From contig CAJXLT010000018.1 of the NCBI GenBank assembly GCA_913056365.1, positions 1 through 52,502 of the forward strand: DNA of 52,502 bases, written 5' to 3'. This DNA is from an uncultured Paenibacillaceae bacterium (GTDB lineage: Bacteria; Bacillota; Bacilli; Paenibacillales; K13). The translations under genes were made by a program, and so were the position numbers. Below are positions 15,039 through 50,151 of the stretch, one piece after another. Positions within the stretch are counted from its first letter, which is position 1; each line of letters begins with the position of its first letter. The notes beneath the pieces were generated by a model, which made no database searches, was not told the origin of the DNA, and saw only the letters and a program-made list of their open reading frames with translations.

Positions 15039-16001
15039 ATGCACACAATAGATGAGGAACTGAAGATAGCGGAGGAAATGCGTTCGGAATTATCAGGCTA
15101 CTGCTACCGAATGACAGGCTCATTCGCCGAGGCGGAGGATGCTGTACAGGATACGTTGCTTCGCATTTGGCAGAGCCAGGGCAAGCTTCGCAATCAAGCT
15201 GCTCTGCGCACTTGGATTTACCGAATTGCAACGAATGTATGCTTGGACAAGCTGAGGAATGCGAAGCGCAGGGCACTGCCTATAGATGTGTCCGATCCAG
15301 CCAATTTCGTTACGGAACCTCAGGAGACGGTTGCACATCCTGCATGGATATGGCCGTATCCTGATCTCTCTCATGACCCTGCAGAGCAGGCGATCAGCAG
15401 GGACACCATTCGACTGTCCTTCATTGCCTTATTACAGACATTACCGCCCAAGCAGCGTGCTGTGTTGATCCTGAACGATGTGTTCCGCTGGCCAGCGAAG
15501 CAAACAGCAGAGACGATGGACATGACTGTTACAGCGGTGAACAGCGCTCTGCAACGAGCACGAGCAACGTTGAAGCAAGCACGCCTACAGTCTGAGACAC
15601 TGCGCAATACGGATGATAAGACGGACGAACGGTTGCTTGCAACTTATGTTGAAGCCTTCGAACAGTACGATGTCGACAAGCTGTTGTCATTATTCCAGGA
15701 AGGTGCAAGCTTATCGATGCCGCCTTATGTGATGTGGGTGAGTGGAACAACCGACATACTCTCATTCTACGAAGCGACGCGCAGCCATTGCGAAGGCTCT
15801 CGCCTGCTGCCTGTACGCGCCAACGGCAACTGCCCGGCATTCGCACATTATATGCCCACCGAACGGGAGGGGATGTGGGTTGCATGGGGCGTGCACGTCC
15901 TTGAAATCAAGGAAGGTCAGATCATACATATCCATCATTTTATTGATTCGGATTTATTTGCACAATTCGGCATGCCAGAAACTTTGGACAACGACCGATG
16001 A
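15039..16001 (+). CDS. ECF sigma factor with C-terminal SnoaL/NTF2-like domain
   Basis: An extracytoplasmic-function sigma factor fused to a SnoaL-like fold, the layout of the TIGR02960/ECF56-like group, where the extension replaces or adds to an anti-sigma factor. I prefer the ATG at 15039 over 15036 for spacing to AAGGAGGG. In the 320 residues, region 2 with YRMTGSFAEAEDAVQDTLLRIW lies near 25-46, the linker contains the family-typical WIWPYPD, region 4 with LPPKQRAVLILNDVFRW lies near 139-155, and the SnoaL-like domain runs from about 195 to 310. No anti-sigma gene is adjacent; a VOC protein and a hydrolase follow. It sits between rsmA and yabG, where B. subtilis has no such gene. Confidence 0.88.
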   Translation: MHTIDEELKIAEEMRSELSGYCYRMTGSFAEAEDAVQDTLLRIWQSQGKLRNQAALRTWIYRIATNVCLDKLRNAKRRALPIDVSDPANFVTEPQETVAHPAWIWPYPDLSHDPAEQAISRDTIRLSFIALLQTLPPKQRAVLILNDVFRWPAKQTAETMDMTVTAVNSALQRARATLKQARLQSETLRNTDDKTDERLLATYVEAFEQYDVDKLLSLFQEGASLSMPPYVMWVSGTTDILSFYEATRSHCEGSRLLPVRANGNCPAFAHYMPTEREGMWVAWGVHVLEIKEGQIIHIHHFIDSDLFAQFGMPETLDNDR

Positions 16002-41497: not shown

Positions 41498-41532
41498 CCG
41501 TGTTGTAGCTGTAAGAGCAGTATACGATAGGC

Positions 41533-41582
41533 AAGCGTCACTTCTCCCAAGTTTGTAGGGGATGAAGTGGCGCTTGTTTTGT
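41533..41582 (+). terminator. Terminator after spoIIE
   Basis: AAGCGTCACTTC (41533-41544) pairs along 12 positions with GAAGTGGCGCTT (41564-41575), followed by a T-rich tail. It marks the edge of the core region. Confidence 0.85.
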
Positions 41583-41773: not shown

Positions 41774-42010
41774 ATGTTTGAGTTCGAACGGAAATTAGAA
41801 GATGCAATATTAAGTAAGCTTTCAAACTATGGTCTTACTTATAGAGAAAAGTCAGTTGCTATATTGTGGATTCAGGACTGTGATTACAGAACAATATCCA
41901 AGAAATTATATATCAGTGAACATACCACAAGAACTATTATAAAAAATATATATAGAAAACTTGAAGTGAATTCTAAAGTGTTACTAGTTATGAAGATTTT
42001 TGTTCAATAA
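41774..42010 (+). CDS. Stand-alone LuxR-type (GerE) helix-turn-helix protein
   Basis: A 78-residue DNA-binding protein made of little more than a LuxR C-terminal domain; there is no receiver or autoinducer domain. The start is the ATG at 41774, six bases after AAGGAGG; an ATG at 41771 is also possible. LTYREKSVAILWIQDCDYRTISKKL (split near residue 35) and ISEHTTRTIIKNIYRKLEV form the four-helix HTH. It is the first gene of the A+T-rich island and its likely local regulator. Base composition and codon use (many AAA, ATA, TTA) differ from spoIIE, suggesting acquisition. Confidence 0.85.
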   Translation: MFEFERKLEDAILSKLSNYGLTYREKSVAILWIQDCDYRTISKKLYISEHTTRTIIKNIYRKLEVNSKVLLVMKIFVQ

Positions 42011-42076
42011 CCCCTTCGTAAACTTAAAGCTCCAAATATTGGGTCTGTTACACTACAAGGGACGGTGAGTATTTGA

Positions 42077-42910
42077 ATGATTTATGTTTCTTTCGTCATT
42101 CACCTGATCATGATTGCCATTTTCTCGTTGTCGTTTTTCACGAAACTATCTGCTTTCGATGATTTCAAGCTCCATATCCACTCCTATAAGTTTGTACCCC
42201 AAAGCTTTGTCACATTCACTGCTTCAATGGTGCTTATAATCGAGATATTACTTGTAATAGGGTTTGCTATAGGTGAAGTTTTGTTAACGAATACAGTAAC
42301 AATAGTACTATTGGCGGCATTTTCCGTCATTCTGAAATGGAAGCAAGAAAACGCGGAATGTAATTGTTTTGGTAATGTTTCATGGTTGAACAGACTGCCA
42401 CTCATGAGGAATGCAATCCTACTACTCTTGGTTATAACTGATATGTTCATTCACTCTCGCGAATTTAAGTTTATTCAGTTAGCAATGGCTATGTGTATTT
42501 TTGTAACTGTAGGCTTGTATGCATATACAAAGAGATACTTGGATACGAAACGCATGGAAAGACTGGTTTCGGAAATTAGAAGTCAAACGAAAGTCAATGA
42601 AGACCGAATGATTATTTTGTTGAGCCACAACCAGTCTAACTTGAAGGAAATCGAAAAATTCATAGTAATCTTACCAAATCAAGTAATTATAATCCTCAGT
42701 GGGCCAGATTGGTTTGTCAAAATAAAATCAGCCGCATGGAAACAACATATTGTATTACATGCAAGTGGGTTGAACAGTCTGAATAAGGTTGGCAACGAAG
42801 AATCAAAAATATTGTTGTATCAGAGAAGAAGAAGTAGAACCATTACGGAAGTGACTGAATTCCTGAAAAGTAAAATACAAAAGGAATCTGAACCAATATA
42901 CCCCATATGA
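42077..42910 (+). CDS. MauE-like (DoxX-related) redox membrane protein with long C-terminal tail
   Basis: A MauE-type membrane protein; in methylamine dehydrogenase systems MauE, with MauD, is needed to form the disulfides of the small subunit. The 277-residue product has five hydrophobic segments near 3-24, 43-66, 70-87, 108-125 and 131-150, and the family-typical CNCFG at 95-99. The tail (about 155-277) is soluble and has no cysteine; MIILLSHNQSNLKEIEKFI resembles the strand-loop-helix of a thioredoxin fold without its CxxC, a tentative reading. GGGACGGTGAG lies upstream. It precedes the peptide gene and two CxxC proteins, so a redox role on the peptide is the natural guess. Confidence 0.78.
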   Translation: MIYVSFVIHLIMIAIFSLSFFTKLSAFDDFKLHIHSYKFVPQSFVTFTASMVLIIEILLVIGFAIGEVLLTNTVTIVLLAAFSVILKWKQENAECNCFGNVSWLNRLPLMRNAILLLLVITDMFIHSREFKFIQLAMAMCIFVTVGLYAYTKRYLDTKRMERLVSEIRSQTKVNEDRMIILLSHNQSNLKEIEKFIVILPNQVIIILSGPDWFVKIKSAAWKQHIVLHASGLNSLNKVGNEESKILLYQRRRSRTITEVTEFLKSKIQKESEPIYPI

Positions 42911-42974
42911 GGTATGTAATATATTCATAAAATATCATATATTTAGCTTATCCAGGGAAGTAGTTGAAGAGAAG

Positions 42975-43016
42975 ATGAATATAGTTGCTGACTTTATAAA
43001 ACTACTCCAAGGGTAA
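42975..43016 (+). CDS. Possible 13-codon micro-ORF before the peptide gene
   Basis: ATG at 42975 with GAAGAG close upstream reads MNIVADFIKLLQG and stops at 43016, 24 bases before the six-cysteine peptide gene. The sequence could form a short amphipathic helix. Such a short ORF may be chance; there is no independent support. Confidence 0.2.
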   Translation: MNIVADFIKLLQG

Positions 43017-43039
43017 TATGAGGAGAAGGGGGTGAGCAT

Positions 43040-43231
43040 ATGGGATGTCCTTCAGGATGGTCACAATACGGCTCTTCTAGTGGAAGTTATTGTGGAACCA
43101 GTTCTTGCAGTTCAATCGAGCCGATTTATCGGCTTGTAGAGTGGACCACATACAAATGCATTTATCCTAAAACAGGAGAAAGAAGTGAAACAACAGATCG
43201 TACAACCACAAGCATCTGTTGTGTACATTAG
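43040..43231 (+). CDS. Small six-cysteine Ser/Thr-rich peptide, candidate secreted or matured product
   Basis: I do not recognise the family. A strong ribosome binding site, AAGGGGGTGAG, precedes the ATG. The 63 residues begin MGCPSGWSQYGSSSGSYCG and end TSICCVH. Cysteines are at 3, 18, 23, 40, 60 and 61, tryptophans at 7 and 35; the middle IEPIYRLVEWTTYKCIYPKTG (about 26-46, broken here as IEPIYRLVEW and TTYKCIYPKTG) is the only partly hydrophobic part. There is no Sec signal peptide, no clear double-glycine leader and no membrane segment. It is flanked by redox genes and an ABC exporter, as expected for a disulfide-containing exported peptide. An 11-bp hairpin starts five bases after the stop, a common arrangement for precursor genes made in excess. 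Confidence 0.7.
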   Translation: MGCPSGWSQYGSSSGSYCGTSSCSSIEPIYRLVEWTTYKCIYPKTGERSETTDRTTTSICCVH

Positions 43232-43236
43232 TCGAA

Positions 43237-43264
43237 GGTGGGGATGGCTTAGGTCATCCCTGCC
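43237..43264 (+). other. Intercistronic hairpin after the peptide gene
   Basis: GGTGGGGATGG (43237-43247) pairs along 11 positions, with G-T pairs, with TCATCCCTGCC (43254-43264) around a CTTAGG loop. No T-run follows. It may stabilise the peptide message or reduce read-through to the downstream genes. Confidence 0.65.
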
Positions 43265-43303
43265 CTATATATGAGACGAATAGAAAGAGTGAAGGATATT
43301 ATG

Positions 43304-43723
43304 ATGAAAAATATACTGGATACATACAAGCATTATGAACAGGGGGATATCATACAGGACTTCCTCATTGATGAATCCACCCATTTCTATCATATAGTAG
43401 GCGAGGGCATCGTAGTTTTAACCATAAGCACGAAATGCAAAGTATGTTTTGAAACTTTGAATGATCTCCAGGACATTGATGTTAAAAAAGAAGAGATCAT
43501 CATTTTTATTGAATGTGACGATGAGGAATATGCAACGATCAAATCCGTGTTTGCTGAGAAGTATAATATGATCCAAATTAACCACGCGTTCCTGAAAAAA
43601 AATCTGAAAACACACGGGGTACCTTGGGTATATCTCATTGACAATCATTTTAAAATTATGATGAATAGGAACTATCAGTCTAAAAGTGATTTGGATTTAA
43701 GAAGTCAAGGTAGATCCTTATGA
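43304..43723 (+). CDS. Thioredoxin-fold protein with CKVC motif
   Basis: A TlpA/thioredoxin-like protein. I start at the ATG at 43304, seven bases after GAAGGA; 43301 is possible. The 139-residue product has the strand IVVLTIS before the active site CKVC at 45-48 and the cis-Pro region HGVPWVYLID near 106-115. It has no signal peptide or membrane segment, so it appears cytosolic unless recruited by the MauE-like protein. Its stop overlaps the ABC transporter start by four bases (ATGA). It may be the redox partner of the MauE-like protein. Confidence 0.78.
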   Translation: MKNILDTYKHYEQGDIIQDFLIDESTHFYHIVGEGIVVLTISTKCKVCFETLNDLQDIDVKKEEIIIFIECDDEEYATIKSVFAEKYNMIQINHAFLKKNLKTHGVPWVYLIDNHFKIMMNRNYQSKSDLDLRSQGRSL

Positions 43724-45489
43724 ACATGATGCACTGGACGAGATTCTTGTTAAAGGATAACTTACTCATCACTCTGGGTTTGATAAGTCTTATTGCATGC
43801 TTTCCCGTCTTGGAGTGGATCAGATTTTCGCAGACACAGCTTTTCTTCAATTCCATTACAGATGCAATAAACACACTTGTGTGGATCGCCCTGATCCTAG
43901 GCTTCGTGCACATTATTGATTTGATGTTACAGCGGATACAAGGAGTATTACATGAACGGTTCTCGTTGAAAATCGGACAAATGTTACAAGAATACGTTCT
44001 TTCGTTAGTTGAAAAAACAAATTCCATCACGACCTTGGAATCTCCGAAGTACAGAGAAGATCTAAATATTCTTAATAACAATATTTCGAAAACATCTGAA
44101 TTTCTTATTACCTCACTCACTATCCTGCATCAAATTGTAGTGGCCAGCATTTATGTGTATTTGATACAGCAGTTTTCATGGCTGACTATTGTAATCGTTT
44201 TTACTTTCGCACTTCCAAGTGTAATTTATGCACTAACTGTTGCCAATCGAACCGATAAGCATTTCCAAGAGAATTCGCAACTTCAACTAGAAGGGGATAA
44301 CATTTATGGATTACTGACACATCCATATGTCCAGAAAGAATTGATTGTTTTCTCTGCAAGGAAATTTCTGATGAATAAGTGGCGAGGAGCCGCGCAACAT
44401 TTAATCAAGAATAACAGTAAATTACTGATAAAGAATGCGAATGTAGGTTTCATTGTGGATATCTTTAGCCCCATCGGATTTGTGCTGGCACAAGTTATAC
44501 TCATACAAAAATTAATTAGTAATACCATTACCCTTGGCGATTACGTAGCGGTGACAACTTCAATCGCTATGTTGGAAGGCTCATTAAAAACCATCATGTT
44601 GAGTACAACGGTTTTCAAAAACTATAACCTGTTAGTAAAACGAATAAAGCATTTCAATATCGTATATGTCGATAACAACAAACGAACGAATACGCTCTTG
44701 CCATGTCCAGAAATAAAACGAGTGGAAGTTAGAAGCCTTTCTTTTACCTACCCGCTTCAATCTAACGCAGTGCTACGAAATGTCAATCTGAATATGAATA
44801 AAGGAGATGTCGTAGCGATTGTTGGTGACAATGGTTCTGGCAAATCAACCTTGGCGAAGATTATGGCAGGATTGCACGCAATTCCAGACGGGCATCTTTT
44901 TATTAATGGTATAGATCTTAACGATATGGAACGTCAAGAATATTACAAGCAAGTTGCTGTAGTTAACCAAGATTTTATCAAATACCCGCTAACTATCTAT
45001 GAGAATATTTCCATGAAAGAAGTTGATGAGAATGACAGATCAACGCTTGATTTATTTGTGAATCAATATCCCATGCTAGTTCCAGATCAGCTAAGAGCTA
45101 ACTTAGATGTGTATATTGGTGCAGAATATCTTCATTCAAACCAATTGTCTGGTGGACAATGGCAAAGGATTGCAATTGCCCGAGCATTGTATAAAGACAG
45201 CTCTTTACTATTGTTAGATGAAGCAACTTCGGAAGTGGACCCACAGACTGAGGCAGATATCGTGAATCACTTGTTGCATGATCGTGTAGGAAAGACAACG
45301 ATTATTGTAACGCACAACCTGTACTTGACCAGGCAAGCCAATCAAATTGTCGTCATGGACAAGGGGGAGATTGTGGAAAAAGGATCGTTTACGGAACTGG
45401 TAAGCAAAGGTGGGAAATTCTACAGGATGTGGGCATCTCAGAATGAAGCTAATAAGTTAACTGCAGCAGGAATGGAGGCTGAAGGATGA
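43720..45489 (+). CDS. ABC exporter (fused membrane and ATPase domains)
   Basis: A type IV (exporter-type) half-transporter, probably a homodimer that exports the neighbouring peptide. The 589-residue product has about five or six membrane spans (about 15-310) and a C-terminal nucleotide-binding domain with Walker A GDNGSGKST near 368-376, the signature LSGGQWQR near 475-482, Walker B LLLLDEAT near 493-500 and the switch His in VTHN near 528-531. No C39 peptidase domain is present at the N-terminus, consistent with the lack of a double-glycine leader in the peptide. It overlaps its neighbours by ATGA at both ends. Confidence 0.92.
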   Translation: MNMMHWTRFLLKDNLLITLGLISLIACFPVLEWIRFSQTQLFFNSITDAINTLVWIALILGFVHIIDLMLQRIQGVLHERFSLKIGQMLQEYVLSLVEKTNSITTLESPKYREDLNILNNNISKTSEFLITSLTILHQIVVASIYVYLIQQFSWLTIVIVFTFALPSVIYALTVANRTDKHFQENSQLQLEGDNIYGLLTHPYVQKELIVFSARKFLMNKWRGAAQHLIKNNSKLLIKNANVGFIVDIFSPIGFVLAQVILIQKLISNTITLGDYVAVTTSIAMLEGSLKTIMLSTTVFKNYNLLVKRIKHFNIVYVDNNKRTNTLLPCPEIKRVEVRSLSFTYPLQSNAVLRNVNLNMNKGDVVAIVGDNGSGKSTLAKIMAGLHAIPDGHLFINGIDLNDMERQEYYKQVAVVNQDFIKYPLTIYENISMKEVDENDRSTLDLFVNQYPMLVPDQLRANLDVYIGAEYLHSNQLSGGQWQRIAIARALYKDSSLLLLDEATSEVDPQTEADIVNHLLHDRVGKTTIIVTHNLYLTRQANQIVVMDKGEIVEKGSFTELVSKGGKFYRMWASQNEANKLTAAGMEAEG

Positions 45490-46775
45490 AGTATCTTAAT
45501 GTAAGTTTATTCTTAGTCATAAGTATATTATTGATTACAGGATGTCAACGCGAGGAAACTCATGAACCCGTTACACTTAAAGTTGCAGGTGTAGATAGGG
45601 ATACGTTCATGGAACTGTACGGGAACGCCTTCTTGTTGGAGAACCAAGACACAACATTGGAGGTCATTCCCAATGAGTTCATCTCCGACGGTGAGAGTAT
45701 GGAAGAAGACATTGCGAGCTATATTACTGAGCATCAGCCAGATGTCTTCATACTTGGAACCTATAATTTTCGGCCTGCAGTAGAAACGGGGCTTCTTCTT
45801 CCGCTGGATACATTCATGGATACGAGTGAATACGAATGGAGTCAATATCCAGATTCTCTTCTGCAAAGATTGCGAAATGACTCGGGACAGGATCAATTGT
45901 ATGGATTGTCCCCATTCTATACTAGCTCAGCTCTGTTCTACAATAAGCGATTATTCGATACCTATGACGTAGATTACCCGAGAGATCATATGTCTTGGGA
46001 GGATGTGTTTGCATTAGCGAGGAAATTCCCAACTCAGACTGAAAATGGGGAGCGCATGTACGGATTTTATCACCCAGACAACATGTCAATTGAGGAAAAA
46101 CTGTTTCGAATGATTTATAATGCAGGATTGGGTGAGAATCTATCGTTCATCGATCCGTTGAACGGAGAGGTGACCTTGAACACATCGAGCTGGAATCAAC
46201 TATGGCACACTTTCATCCAAGCTTATCAAGATGGGATCATCCTTGATCAACCGTTAAATGATTTAAGTGATTTTTCTGGGACTACTCCACAAGAACGCGT
46301 CAAGGGATTTATAGAAGGTCATGCTGCTATGGTAGTCGCAGAAACCACTGTATTCGAACTGGCGAATGAATTGGAGAAGCTTGACGTTCAAGTGGTACAG
46401 GTTCCGGGTACATATCAAGCTCAGATGCAAGCAGGACATACATTTGCCATTACTAGTTACTCCGAACATCCTGATAGAGCATGGGAAATCATTGAATTCG
46501 TTCATAGTGAAAAAGCAGGGTTATACCATATGGTGTGGGGAAGTCTCCCGATATACTCCTCACAACTAGAGCAACAATGGGGACTTGATTTATCCGCATT
46601 CTATAACAAGGATGCAGCTTTATATGGGATATATTCTAACAAAGGATTACCAGAAGGGTTCTTGCAACGATATTTTGAAGCGGGAGCAGCTGAGATGAAA
46701 TTAATAATGGATGAAGGGAAAACGATTGAAATGGCGTTGGATGACCTTCAAGAGGTTATGAGTGCAGCGTATTAA
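45486..46775 (+). CDS. Extracellular solute-binding lipoprotein 1
   Basis: A family 1-type solute-binding protein anchored by a lipid. The 429-residue product has a lipoprotein signal with lipobox LITGC (Cys20), then a two-lobed binding fold with DVFILGTYN near 88-96, YGLSPFYTSSALFYNKRLFD near 138-157 and the C-terminal hinge AWEIIEFVHSEKAG. It overlaps the ABC gene by four bases. It is clearly paralogous to the lipoprotein at 47251. No binding-protein-dependent import permease lies in the window, so the ligand and partner are unknown; it may bind the exported peptide or a sugar. Confidence 0.85.
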   Translation: MKYLNVSLFLVISILLITGCQREETHEPVTLKVAGVDRDTFMELYGNAFLLENQDTTLEVIPNEFISDGESMEEDIASYITEHQPDVFILGTYNFRPAVETGLLLPLDTFMDTSEYEWSQYPDSLLQRLRNDSGQDQLYGLSPFYTSSALFYNKRLFDTYDVDYPRDHMSWEDVFALARKFPTQTENGERMYGFYHPDNMSIEEKLFRMIYNAGLGENLSFIDPLNGEVTLNTSSWNQLWHTFIQAYQDGIILDQPLNDLSDFSGTTPQERVKGFIEGHAAMVVAETTVFELANELEKLDVQVVQVPGTYQAQMQAGHTFAITSYSEHPDRAWEIIEFVHSEKAGLYHMVWGSLPIYSSQLEQQWGLDLSAFYNKDAALYGIYSNKGLPEGFLQRYFEAGAAEMKLIMDEGKTIEMALDDLQEVMSAAY

Positions 46776-46797
46776 AATGAAAGAGGGGTGCCGAAAT

Positions 46798-47250
46798 ATG
46801 GGGAAGGTTGATTTCACCAAACTATTTGAGGGAAAGCAGAGAGAAGTAGAAGAAGTCAGGGCATTCGAATCGAATGAAGTGTTTCCCTTGCCGGAATGGG
46901 TCTCTATAGAAGCTGATAGTCGAATAATTGTGAACTGCTTCCTATCACTAAGCTGTCCTGTATGTATTGAACTGCTGCCCGAGCTGCCTGAATTGTTTGC
47001 ATCTTATGATATGCAATTTGTATTGTTCATATATGGGATGGAAGAGGAAATTGCAGGCTTGAAGGAGCATTTCCAATTTCAATTCCCTGTAGTTCGTGTT
47101 GCTGACGATGAACTGAATGAGAAATATAAAGTTCCAGTAACACCGTATGTTTATATTTTATCGACTGATAGAAAGGTAATCAGTAGAGCTGGAATTGACA
47201 CCAGACATGAATTGGAGAGTTTGTGCACTAACTATGTAGGGAGAACATAA
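46798..47250 (+). CDS. Second thioredoxin-fold protein with CPVC motif
   Basis: The start is the ATG at 46798, nine bases after GAGGGG. The 150-residue product has the strand IIVNCFLS before the active site CPVC at 53-56, an extra Cys at 47, helices ELLPELPELFASY, and the cis-Pro strand VPVTPYVYIL near 123-132. It has no signal peptide. It lies between the two lipoprotein genes; its TAA is immediately followed by the next ATG. With the CKVC protein it gives two thioredoxin-like genes in one operon. Confidence 0.82.
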   Translation: MGKVDFTKLFEGKQREVEEVRAFESNEVFPLPEWVSIEADSRIIVNCFLSLSCPVCIELLPELPELFASYDMQFVLFIYGMEEEIAGLKEHFQFQFPVVRVADDELNEKYKVPVTPYVYILSTDRKVISRAGIDTRHELESLCTNYVGRT

Positions 47251-48522
47251 ATGAGAAGATTTTTATGTATGCTAATTCTATTATTGAGTACACTATCTGT
47301 TGGATGTTCTACTAATGGTGTAGATAAAACTGATGCAACGATAAGAATACTAGTGGAAGATGTATCGCAAACTGACACTCAAGCTTATAGAGCGTTGAGG
47401 GAAGAGTACCCTAACGTTAGCATTGAATGGATTAATGGCAGAGAACAGGTGGAGCAGCCTTTACAGTTGTATGAGAATTTCGAAGAGCTGTATGTGGAAT
47501 TGAATCCGGATGTTGTGATAACTAACCAAACGACCTTTCCAATCTTATCTTCCCAGGGATACTTGCTAAATTTGGAGTCGCGTATGAGTCAAGACGGGAT
47601 ACTATTAGAACAAATACACGCACCAGTTATGGAATCGATCCAAGATAGTGGAAACGGACAAGTGAATGGGTTGTCCCCGTATTTTGACACAGAGGTTCTA
47701 ATGTATAACACAAACTTGTTTGATGAATTCGGCATCTCATATCCAGACGATCAGATGACGTGGGAGGAAATTCTTGATTTAATTATGAGATTTCCAGCTT
47801 CTAATCAGCAAGGGGATGCGATATTTGGGTTATACGACGGTTACGAAGGGAGTGCAGCTTCATTATTAGACCGCATAAGCCGGACGGAAGGACTGTCCTA
47901 TCTGGATTGGGACAACAAGCAGGTCACCTACCAAGATTCAAGGTGGATAGAGATGTATACGCTAGTTTCACGTGTTGTTCAATCTGATGTACTACTGAAT
48001 CGTTCAACTGTTCAGGAAGAGGGACAACAGCCTGTAGACTTATTTAAGCAGAATAAGCTTGCTGTAATGCTAGGAGATTACGAAACCTTCGTTACCCTTA
48101 GTTATGATAATGACTTGGAGTTCGGAGTAGTGACCCAACCCGTTGCAGAAGGAGATCGTTCCGCAGGTCATTTATATGTGAACAATATTTATTCCGTTAA
48201 TGCGAATAGCCCCAATATTGAAATCGCATGGAAATTTATACAGGCAGCCATGGGACAAAACGAACCAGATAAACTTCCAGTGACCCTAAGTTCTCTAGTG
48301 CAAAAAGATGAAAGAGCAGATGTCTTCTATAAGCTTGATTATAAACGTGAAGATTCGATTAACTTCTGGGAGGTGCCTATTGAATTCTCTACAGAAATGA
48401 ATCGGTTAAGACATGAAGCCTTAACGAAAATTGTTTCAGGAGAAGGATCGTCTGTTCAGGAGGTTCTGAAGCAATTGGAGACAGATGGTCAGAACATGCT
48501 GGAATCTCATATATCGAAGTAA
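47251..48522 (+). CDS. Extracellular solute-binding lipoprotein 2
   Basis: The 423-residue product has a lipoprotein signal with lipobox LSVGC (Cys19) and the same two-lobed fold as the protein at 45486. Aligned blocks show paralogy: GLSPYFDTEVLMYNTNLFDEF with PDDQMTWEEILDLIMRFP here, and GLSPFYTSSALFYNKRLF with PRDHMSWEDVFALARKFP there. It starts directly after the TAA of the CPVC gene and ends the operon, followed by a terminator. The ligand is unknown; no importer subunits are nearby. Confidence 0.85.
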   Translation: MRRFLCMLILLLSTLSVGCSTNGVDKTDATIRILVEDVSQTDTQAYRALREEYPNVSIEWINGREQVEQPLQLYENFEELYVELNPDVVITNQTTFPILSSQGYLLNLESRMSQDGILLEQIHAPVMESIQDSGNGQVNGLSPYFDTEVLMYNTNLFDEFGISYPDDQMTWEEILDLIMRFPASNQQGDAIFGLYDGYEGSAASLLDRISRTEGLSYLDWDNKQVTYQDSRWIEMYTLVSRVVQSDVLLNRSTVQEEGQQPVDLFKQNKLAVMLGDYETFVTLSYDNDLEFGVVTQPVAEGDRSAGHLYVNNIYSVNANSPNIEIAWKFIQAAMGQNEPDKLPVTLSSLVQKDERADVFYKLDYKREDSINFWEVPIEFSTEMNRLRHEALTKIVSGEGSSVQEVLKQLETDGQNMLESHISK

Positions 48523-48543: not shown

Positions 48544-48586
48544 AGCCCTCGGCACTTCTTCATGGGAAGAGCGAGGGCTGTTTACT
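48544..48586 (+). terminator. Terminator at the end of the island operon
   Basis: AGCCCTCG (48544-48551) pairs with CGAGGGCT (48572-48579), with an inner CTTC/GAAG stem, then a T-rich tail. Confidence 0.8.
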
Positions 48587-48994: not shown

Positions 48995-49022
48995 TTGCTT
49001 CAATAGTCTGATGTGATACAAT
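48995..49022 (+). promoter_or_regulatory. Candidate promoter of the LacI-family gene
   Basis: TTGCTT (48995-49000), 16 bases, TACAAT (49017-49022). Operator O2 begins 14 bases after the -10, at about +8. Confidence 0.55.
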
Positions 49023-49035
49023 GACCGCAATAATA

Positions 49036-49051
49036 GTAAACACGTGTTTAC
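49036..49051. promoter_or_regulatory. Palindromic operator O2
   Basis: GTAAACACGTGTTTAC is a perfect 16-bp palindrome just downstream of a likely promoter and upstream of the TTG start of the LacI-family gene. It fits autorepression. Confidence 0.75.
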
Positions 49052-49104
49052 CTATTTCCGTTATAGTTGTGACCCTACGCAGATCAGTAAGGAGTGCCCG
49101 TTCG

Positions 49105-50151
49105 TTGAAGAACAAAGAAGTGAACAGCCACCAAATTGCCCGCTTGGCCGGGGTATCGCGCAGTACGGTTAGCCGAGTCATTAACAATTACAGCAATGTG
49201 CCGGCCGAGACGCGTGAGAAGGTTATGAAGGTGATTAAGCAGTATAATTACTTTCCGAATCTGTCAGGGCAAGTGCTGGCTGGTAAGAGCACGAGAACAG
49301 TCGGTTTGTTCATGATTGAATCCGGTCCTGTATCGGGTGATATGATTGCCAACTTCCTGTTAGCCAATGTGGTCGAAACGGCATCGAGTCAAGGGTATTA
49401 TGTACTCACCCAAATTATTCGCGACAGCCGCGATCCAGCAGCTGTGCGCAGTGTGAAGGAGAGCTTTTATCAGCGGCGCATTGACGGCGGTATCTTTATC
49501 GGAGCGGCGAATCATGAACCATTGATAGAGGAATTGATCGCAGAAGGTTTCGCTATCGGGCTCGTGGATCATGAATTACCTGGCAGACAGGAGCCGAATC
49601 GGATTGTCTATAACTTTGACAACGCAGGCGGCATCGAGCAGGCGATCGACTATGTTGTTAGTCTAAATCATCGTCATATCGGCGTGATTACAGGGGATAT
49701 GAAGCGTCATTCAGGAACGGAGAAGTTCCGGGGCTTCATGCAGGCGATGGACAAGCGGGGTCTGACGGTACGGCCTGAATGGATCTTGGACGGTGACTTT
49801 GATCAGCAATCGGGGTTTACGGCGATGGAGCAGTTGTTAGAAGGGGGAGGGGAGCTGCCGACAGCGATCTTCGCGGCGAACGACAGTGTAGCATTCGGGG
49901 TCATGGATGCGCTTTATAAGCGCGGTCTGCGTGTGCCGGATGATATATCTGTCATCGGGTTCGATGACCATTCGCTGAGCGCACGCTTTCAGCCACCATT
50001 GACGACGGTTCGTGTTGATTTCGCAGCAGTAATGGGTGGCTTGACGAAAGCGCTAATCGGTTGTATTGAGCATGGCGGCGATACGTTCAACAAAGTAACA
50101 GTCTCCACCAACTTGGTCATTCGCGAATCGTGCAAGCGTATTCCTACCTAA
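49105..50151 (+). CDS. LacI-family transcriptional regulator
   Basis: A sugar-responsive repressor type. I choose the TTG at 49105: AAGGAG lies ten bases upstream, the protein then begins just before the helix-turn-helix, and the operator O2 falls outside the gene. A longer reading from 49021 would run through the operator. In 348 residues, NSHQIARLAGVSRSTVSRVINNYS near 7-30 is the HTH and VLAGKSTRTVGLFM near 52-65 the hinge and first strand of the periplasmic-binding-like domain, with IGFDDHSLSARFQPPLTTV near 296-314. Genes for VOC, SDR and ThuA proteins follow on the same strand. Confidence 0.92.
   Translation: MKNKEVNSHQIARLAGVSRSTVSRVINNYSNVPAETREKVMKVIKQYNYFPNLSGQVLAGKSTRTVGLFMIESGPVSGDMIANFLLANVVETASSQGYYVLTQIIRDSRDPAAVRSVKESFYQRRIDGGIFIGAANHEPLIEELIAEGFAIGLVDHELPGRQEPNRIVYNFDNAGGIEQAIDYVVSLNHRHIGVITGDMKRHSGTEKFRGFMQAMDKRGLTVRPEWILDGDFDQQSGFTAMEQLLEGGGELPTAIFAANDSVAFGVMDALYKRGLRVPDDISVIGFDDHSLSARFQPPLTTVRVDFAAVMGGLTKALIGCIEHGGDTFNKVTVSTNLVIRESCKRIPT

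Follow-up and report, generated by a model that had tools for sequence, protein, structure and literature searches.

The 52,502-nucleotide window analysed here, contig CAJXLT010000018.1 of an uncultured Paenibacillaceae bacterium, carries a block of eight genes at positions 41774-48522, all on the plus strand and pointing in one direction. In order, they encode a stand-alone LuxR-type helix-turn-helix (HTH) protein, a MauE-like membrane protein fused to a C-terminal domain termed MauC, a 63-residue peptide with six cysteines, a CxxC-containing thioredoxin-fold protein (TRX1), an ATP-binding cassette (ABC) exporter lacking a C39 peptidase domain, a solute-binding protein (SBP1), a MauD-like thioredoxin-fold protein (TRX2) and a second solute-binding protein (SBP2). 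A first-pass annotation, made from the letters of the sequence, had read the block as an apparently undescribed redox and export operon around the six-cysteine peptide; all eight co-directional open reading frames (ORFs) are present, and Pfam searches agree with the families it had named (GerE, MauE with a CNCFG motif, CxxC thioredoxin folds, a C39-less ABC protein and two SBP_bac_1 lipoproteins). As also noted there, the block is A+T-richer than its surroundings, with a G+C fraction of 0.389 versus 0.495 for the remaining window. The tight spacing it described holds for the later genes, which overlap by a few nucleotides or abut at 43720, 45486, 46762 or 46798, and 47251; a 129-nucleotide gap separates the MauE gene from the peptide gene, so tight packing is not true of every gene. 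The two terminators that it placed around the block fare unequally: the hairpin behind spoIIE upstream is strong (41529-41579, plus strand; -30.4 kcal/mol, z = -5.3, followed by a U-run), and the downstream one is weaker (48544-48579, plus strand; z = -2.1, with 7 of 200 shuffles equally good). A consensus terminator scan of the window listed neither, because their loops are longer than its limit. Directly behind the peptide gene lies a further hairpin without a T-run (43237-43264, plus strand; -21.3 kcal/mol, z = -3.2), which may limit read-through or stabilise the transcript.

The peptide gene (43040-43231, plus strand) follows a Shine-Dalgarno (SD) sequence at 43026-43034 and encodes a predicted leaderless product, our proposed bacteriocin, starting with MGC, the succession of Met, small residue and Cys found in laterosporulin-type peptides. 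No leader is present in the 63-residue ORF, nor are the features of class II peptides with double-glycine leaders (a GG leader, a C39 exporter). The cysteines are spaced 14-4-16-19-0, the net charge is 0, and the peptide has no family match in Pfam. Its calculated average mass without Met is 6793.4 Da with three disulfides and 6799.4 Da in the reduced state. One other genome of the genus was examined (G001), and there the same genes stand in the same order (2 of 2 genomes), likewise flanked by spoIIE and a LacI-type gene; the conservation of the operon at the equivalent place is therefore not due to chance. Protein identities between the two are 78% for the HTH protein, 55% for MauE, 75% for the peptide, 61% for TRX1, 79% for the ABC protein, 67% for SBP1, 71% for TRX2 and 66% for SBP2, and the retention of all six cysteines at this level of peptide identity points to a real gene under selection. 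The LacI-type regulator (49021-50151) follows the operon in both genomes, and the ORFs beyond it look by eye like glyoxalase-type and short-chain dehydrogenase-type genes. The stand-alone HTH protein (41774-42010, plus strand; 78 residues; PF00196, E = 2.1e-10), with a start at ATG 41774 or alternatively at GTG 41729, is likely a regulator.

Both genomes of the genus also hold a second cluster (L099:5914-9986, on contig C1, in the window's own genome and L100:9877-14095 in G001). Both consist of HTH, six-cysteine peptide, TRX1, ABC, TRX2 and MauC genes and lack MauE. Since a single MauE core was found in the own genome at profile-search cut-offs, the window's MauE may serve both of its clusters.

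How generally such peptides accompany these redox genes was assessed from a search that started from MauE and was blind to peptides. Matches were found in 33 of 392 genomes of the order (E-value cut-off 1e-8) and in 43 of 398 genomes of the class (1e-6); in a phylum-wide sample of 398 genomes, one genome besides the own was found at 1e-12. The order set comprised loci from all 33 genomes (the window, its orthologue L006 in G001 and 35 more), and 20 loci were taken from the class set. Among the 55 loci scanned for peptides, 43 hold MauE or MauC together with a thioredoxin-fold protein and an ABC exporter of one family (L099 and L100 with MauC only); 12 were incomplete and were excluded from the count. 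A strict rule (SD-led ATG, 40-95 residues, at least six Cys, last Cys no more than 10 residues from the end) identified same-strand cysteine-rich ORFs in 37 of the 43 loci, 47 ORFs in total, some of them nearly identical. Under the same rule, the controls yielded a single ORF on the antisense strand and, across 536 kb of flanking sequence (both strands), three more; of these four, all but one resemble true peptides (L137 twice, L081). Where no strict sense hit was obtained, the peptide was hidden by an overlong neighbouring ORF (L073), lay just beyond the interval (L081) or was on the other strand (L137), and L140, L142 and L143 contain no ORF passing the rule. Cysteine-rich genes thus accompany MauE, CxxC proteins and the exporter in many genomes, in agreement with the proposed redox and export operon and at odds with the alternative, which the annotation had allowed, that peptide homologues never adjoin such genes. 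Scans of a genome-contig collection with MauE and laterosporulin gave no match, and neither a laterosporulin nor a MauE taken from one cluster matched any of the plasmids.

Two further features emerged from these loci. Of 40 loci that share the window's type, 31 hold a DUF6941-like gene, that of laterosporulin among them; the product of this gene, about 132 residues long (e.g. L134:10584-10982), matches PF22091 clearly in L134 and was below the cut-off or unmatched in four others tested, and an immunity or scaffold role is possible. Loci from other Bacilli (L135, L137-L149) form a sister type with another layout, in which MauE is mostly joined by an ABC exporter and by thioredoxin-fold proteins with an N-terminal hydrophobic helix; some of their cysteine-rich peptides have a leader-like N terminus (L138, L139, L141, L143).

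The annotation's term 'undescribed' is not supported in its full sense, as laterosporulin, a purified defensin-like bacteriocin of class IId, is encoded amid the same set of genes, although the published descriptions consulted show only part of that set. Homologues of laterosporulin were found in 3 of 13 selected genomes (G494, G460 and G524), all of one genus (g96) that we take to be the laterosporulin-producing Brevibacillus, and in all three they lie about 3 kb from a MauE match. The query was a published laterosporulin variant (PMC6510442); two loci, L133 and L134, were examined gene by gene, and for G460 the positions of peptide and MauE alone. The order in L133 and L134 is LuxR-HTH regulator, peptide, TRX1, ABC, TRX2, MauE, MauC and DUF6941. 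The L134 peptide has 50 residues and, without its Met, a mass of 5619.3 Da, equal to the theoretical mass printed for laterosporulin, and the stretch from regulator to TRX2 spans 3951 bp with a G+C fraction of 0.367; the published region is given as 4 kb with 36.6% GC (PMC3293901). Mass, length and GC agree with print, and the published 4-kb region therefore very probably ends at TRX2, short of MauE. That publication names genes for an ABC transporter, a dehydrogenase and a hypothetical protein (PMC3293901); we infer that this dehydrogenase would be the MauD-like protein, whose name derives from methylamine dehydrogenase. Neither 'MauE' nor 'thioredoxin' occurs in the main text of PMC6510442.

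The window shares with the laterosporulin cluster the leaderless cysteine-rich peptide, the LuxR-HTH regulator, TRX1, the C39-less ABC protein, the MauD-like TRX2, MauE, MauC and the low GC, so that a complete laterosporulin-type gene set stands on one strand, with MauE and MauC fused and the order changed. It differs in the position of the fused gene ahead of the peptide, in the SBP pair and in lacking DUF6941. The gene set thus gives good support for kinship of the clusters. For the peptides, support is stepwise. The cysteine spacing of the L134 laterosporulin (1-13-14-7-7) does not match that of the window peptide. A second cluster in genus g96 carries three peptides in tandem (L131, L132), and when profiles were compared against Cys-preserving column shuffles (n = 200), a hand-picked group of nine around the window peptide matched these with a probability of 96-97% (0 of 200 shuffles as good); the second-cluster peptides against laterosporulin gave 2 of 200 shuffles as good, which is suggestive. 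In plain profile tests against about 6,400 ORFs, where several top 'decoys' proved to be unlisted true peptides, a profile of 22 peptides placed the L134 laterosporulin above every chance ORF (14.0 versus 11.3 bits, E = 0.02), and a profile of nine Brevibacillus-type peptides placed the window peptide narrowly above all of them (13.5 versus 12.9 bits, E = 0.042). Direct homology between the window peptide and laterosporulin is only suggested by these comparisons.

The cluster peptides are encoded by short ORFs behind a strong SD sequence; they contain 6-10 Cys, have a MAC- or MGC-like start and often end in CC or GCC. Six cysteines are kept in all 22 members of an aligned set, which was hand-picked: near-copies (the second peptides of L067 and L087, and those of L078, L079 and L092), the 10-Cys peptides of L068, L072 and L091, the short or differently spaced ones of L083, L089, L095 and L098, and the later-found L081 were dropped. 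Eight of 34 listed peptides have six Cys in the window's pattern, to which the eight-Cys members add a second and a sixth Cys; by eye, these two are both present or both absent in each peptide, and we read them as one disulfide. None of the 22 matches an NCBIfam model at E = 1, and Pfam returned seven weak, unrelated or eukaryotic families with one or two members each, among them Defensin_beta for one peptide (E = 0.029). The window peptide alone retrieved nothing from the PDB and no usable match from plasmids, and the best PDB rows of the peptide profile, formylglycine-generating enzymes, were treated as chance. When the pair of orthologous peptides was searched in the 392 order genomes, 40 matched at E = 0.05, mostly as noise; besides the two orthologues, the sole row tied to one of the clusters examined was that of G311 (E = 0.007; L073). 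Peptide-first searches fail beyond the genus because the peptides presumably vary fast. Several clusters contain two or three peptide genes, ranging from identical to diverged (L131:8243-9017, L132:8006-8785, L083:6438-7057, L091:12794-13291, and L087, L067, L095 and L076), and in L081 a family peptide (15447-15665), found only by a profile scan, lies about 3 kb upstream of its own redox and ABC genes.

The redox proteins give some indication of where disulfides would form, a point that the first-pass annotation had left open. The MauE-MauC fusion (42077-42910, plus strand; PF07291, E = 9e-16) is a rarer form and is not unique: in 32 of 35 order loci, the match to its C-terminal half is a gene of its own, and long MauE ORFs occur in L071, L081 and L082. 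In 22 chosen rows, C95, C97, G99, P108, R111 and N112 are invariant, hydrophobic segments surround the CxC loop, and K/R are frequent on both sides of it, from which, applying the positive-inside rule, we infer a cytosolic location for this loop and for the C-terminal domain. A single hydrophobic stretch stands at the N terminus of MauC, followed by a domain without CxxC, except in L072, where a CxxC lies inside the stretch. TRX1 (43304-43723, plus strand, in an ORF that opens at 43271; CKVC) has a weak Thioredoxin_2 match below the cut-off, and TRX2 (46798-47250, plus strand, in an ORF that opens at GTG 46762; CPVC) matches TIGR02661 at 5.2e-7, also below the cut-off. By hydropathy, neither protein of the window nor the corresponding rows of same-type loci have an N-terminal hydrophobic stretch, except for the overlong L073 ORF; in those of L135 and L137-L149 that have a thioredoxin-fold row, such a stretch stands at or near the start, shifted by overlong ORFs in L138, L139 and L149. 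CxHC, a motif typical of the oxidising proteins DsbA and PDI, is found in 21 of 45 rows of one thioredoxin-fold class and in 0 of 29 of the other, the split being approximate and based on best profile or short motif. Together, the missing N-terminal stretch of TRX1 and TRX2 and the K/R residues around the MauE loop therefore suggest, with moderate confidence, that the peptide is oxidised on the cytosolic side and exported in folded form.

The ABC protein (43720-45489, plus strand) is a permease-ATPase (PF00005, ABC_tran, E = 2.7e-30) of the same family across clusters, and Pfam gave no peptidase C39 match. A defence role was considered and rejected, as the PADLOC matches (mad3 and others) are generic ATPase matches. 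SBP1 (45486-46775, plus strand; PF01547, SBP_bac_1, E = 8.9e-21) shows a lipobox in its translation, and SBP2 (47251-48522, plus strand; PF01547, E = 2.5e-14) is likewise a lipoprotein; the two are paralogous, as the first-pass annotation had it, yet distant at about 26% identity. Its statement that the paired SBPs do not fit a known bacteriocin operon is correct insofar as, among the cluster loci read, SBPs lie inside only in the window, L006, L068, L070 and L096. An orphan pair elsewhere in the own genome (L154:9768-12421) contains, member by member, the nearest relatives of SBP1 and SBP2 (39% and 36%), SBP2 forming its own tree lineage with the second member of L154; a further adjacent lipoprotein pair occurs at L155:9136-11747, and no permease genes were seen beside either. 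In the tree, L068's SBP and one of the two in L070 join other own-genome lineages, and that of L096 and the second of L070 have no clear placement. Because the window pair mirrors the orphan pair and the SBPs of other clusters fall in other lineages, it was probably recruited independently, and we rejected the idea of SBPs as a fixed part of the system, given their presence in few clusters and in separate lineages.

Based on these observations, we consider it probable that the window operon encodes a bacteriocin system of the laterosporulin type, in a variant form whose MauE is fused and whose SBP pair was recruited. We propose the following hypothetical mechanism, in which (i) expression would be under the control of the HTH protein, with the hairpin downstream of the peptide gene possibly setting the peptide dose; (ii) the peptide would be translated without a leader, probably losing its Met alone; (iii) TRX1 and TRX2, as CxxC proteins on the cytosolic side, would form the three disulfides and pass the electrons to MauE; (iv) the CxC loop of MauE would hand them to the membrane quinone pool; (v) the C39-less ABC protein would export the folded peptide, with a presumed antibacterial activity; (vi) the lipoprotein SBP pair would most likely protect the producer or hold the exported peptide at the surface. 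Producer protection is our first guess, because the operon has no other immunity candidate. Tentatively, this can be extended to a family of hypervariable, leaderless, disulfide-rich peptides of Bacilli, possibly served throughout by a cytosolic relay of TRX1, TRX2, MauE and quinone followed by folded export, in which laterosporulin would be the first known product, the window's SBPs would confer immunity and the second and sixth Cys would form one disulfide.

Several observations weigh against this interpretation. Eight of the 43 loci belong to one genus (g21), so the loci are not all independent. No DUF6941-like gene was detected in the window or in L006 at E = 0.01, and pairs of SBPs also occur outside such clusters. 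The window peptide ends in CC, unlike laterosporulin. Compared directly with the laterosporulins, the window group reached a probability of 4-9%, with 3 of 200 shuffles as good; the L133 laterosporulin scores 7.4 bits with the family profile, and with a profile of the other 20 peptides the window peptide falls under one chance ORF (11.0 versus 12.5 bits, E = 0.17). A single-sequence fold of the window peptide gave a model of strands only, at a confidence score (pLDDT) of 55, which is too low for a useful fold search, and in the PDB profile search laterosporulin3 appeared at E = 2.6, ranked under seven rows of other proteins. Finally, the topology of MauE is deduced from the positive-inside rule and the location of the thioredoxin-fold proteins from hydropathy alone, and these proteins could be reducing rather than oxidising.

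This last point leads to the main competing scheme, a rather unlikely one, within the same cluster type: the peptide would leave the cell reduced and fold outside, with TRX1 and TRX2 serving as thiol keepers in the cytosol and MauE oxidising at the outer face. It would suit thioredoxin-fold proteins that look cytosolic, where the surroundings are reducing, and the N-terminal hydrophobic helix on those of the related Bacilli clusters; the K/R residues around the CxC loop, however, suggest a cytosolic face, and the CxHC in many rows of one class looks oxidising. The SBPs invite another explanation, which we regard as unlikely: the peptide might not be a bacteriocin and could act instead as a secreted signal or as a surface factor, with the pair sensing or binding it. 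Both SBPs are lipoproteins in an operon without permease genes, both genomes of the genus retain the pair, and the neutral charge of the window peptide would fit. Against this, the gene set is that of a purified bacteriocin, the two laterosporulins of L133 and L134 are themselves near-neutral (-1 and -2), and the tandem, partly diverged peptide copies of several clusters resemble weapon diversification.

The resemblance to MauE and MauD also raises the idea of a maturation operon for a methylamine-dehydrogenase-like or other enzyme, with the small ORF as its cysteine-rich subunit. We consider this very improbable, given that no dehydrogenase structural subunits are among the eight genes, that the peptides vary strongly where the redox genes stay, and that an exporter of one family accompanies the redox genes in most of the loci.

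The window operon is thus real and conserved, and its arrangement adds a new variant to a family of which, in the literature consulted, laterosporulin is the one characterised product. This places a so far nearly orphan defensin-like bacteriocin in a broad and poorly described family of clusters, which, together with the likely cytosolic redox relay, is the main point of interest; if true, such a relay would constitute an intracellular disulfide pathway in bacteria. Heterologous expression of laterosporulin failed with the 4-kb region, as cited in PMC6510442 from its authors, and with that study's own EcoRI fragments of about 6.7 kb. As matched here, the 4-kb fragment ends ahead of MauE, MauC and DUF6941, a candidate reason for its failure; the EcoRI fragments may have included MauE, and missing genes are therefore no full explanation. 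Beyond laterosporulin, the family yields 47 strict peptide ORFs in 37 loci, and its redox module could be transferred into laboratory strains.

Among the matches listed by searches of the open-access literature, with subscription papers and preprints outside the scope, we found no work joining MauE to laterosporulin or describing this family of clusters in Bacilli, and a 2024 review describes the production and export of leaderless bacteriocins as poorly understood (PMC7616364). Individual elements have counterparts in known systems. Actifensins are, like the window peptide, small and six-cysteine; these defensin-like bacteriocins have a LuxR gene in their cluster and differ in a 32-residue leader, a subtilisin-like protease and another Cys spacing, and their main text does not contain 'thioredoxin' (PMC6989792). 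Unlike sublancin, the window peptide has no leader and its exporter no C39 domain. The sublancin operon of Bacillus subtilis combines dedicated thiol oxidoreductases with an ABC exporter, whose C39 domain cleaves the leader, and its product is glycosylated; none of these last features was seen in the window operon. Bactofencin A also has a leader peptide. A thioredoxin-domain protein has been hypothesised to help its disulfide formation, in a system that differs from the window by having one such protein and no MauE mentioned in the review (PMC7616364). Three candidate families predicted by decRiPPter in Streptomyces contain mauE, one of them also mauD, and each has a precursor with at least eight Cys; a role in precursor modification was proposed for the mauE families (PMC7794033). 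These families are predictions only, made in Streptomyces and presented there with no link to laterosporulin (PMC7794033), and their likeness to the window operon lies in mauE standing beside cysteine-rich precursors.

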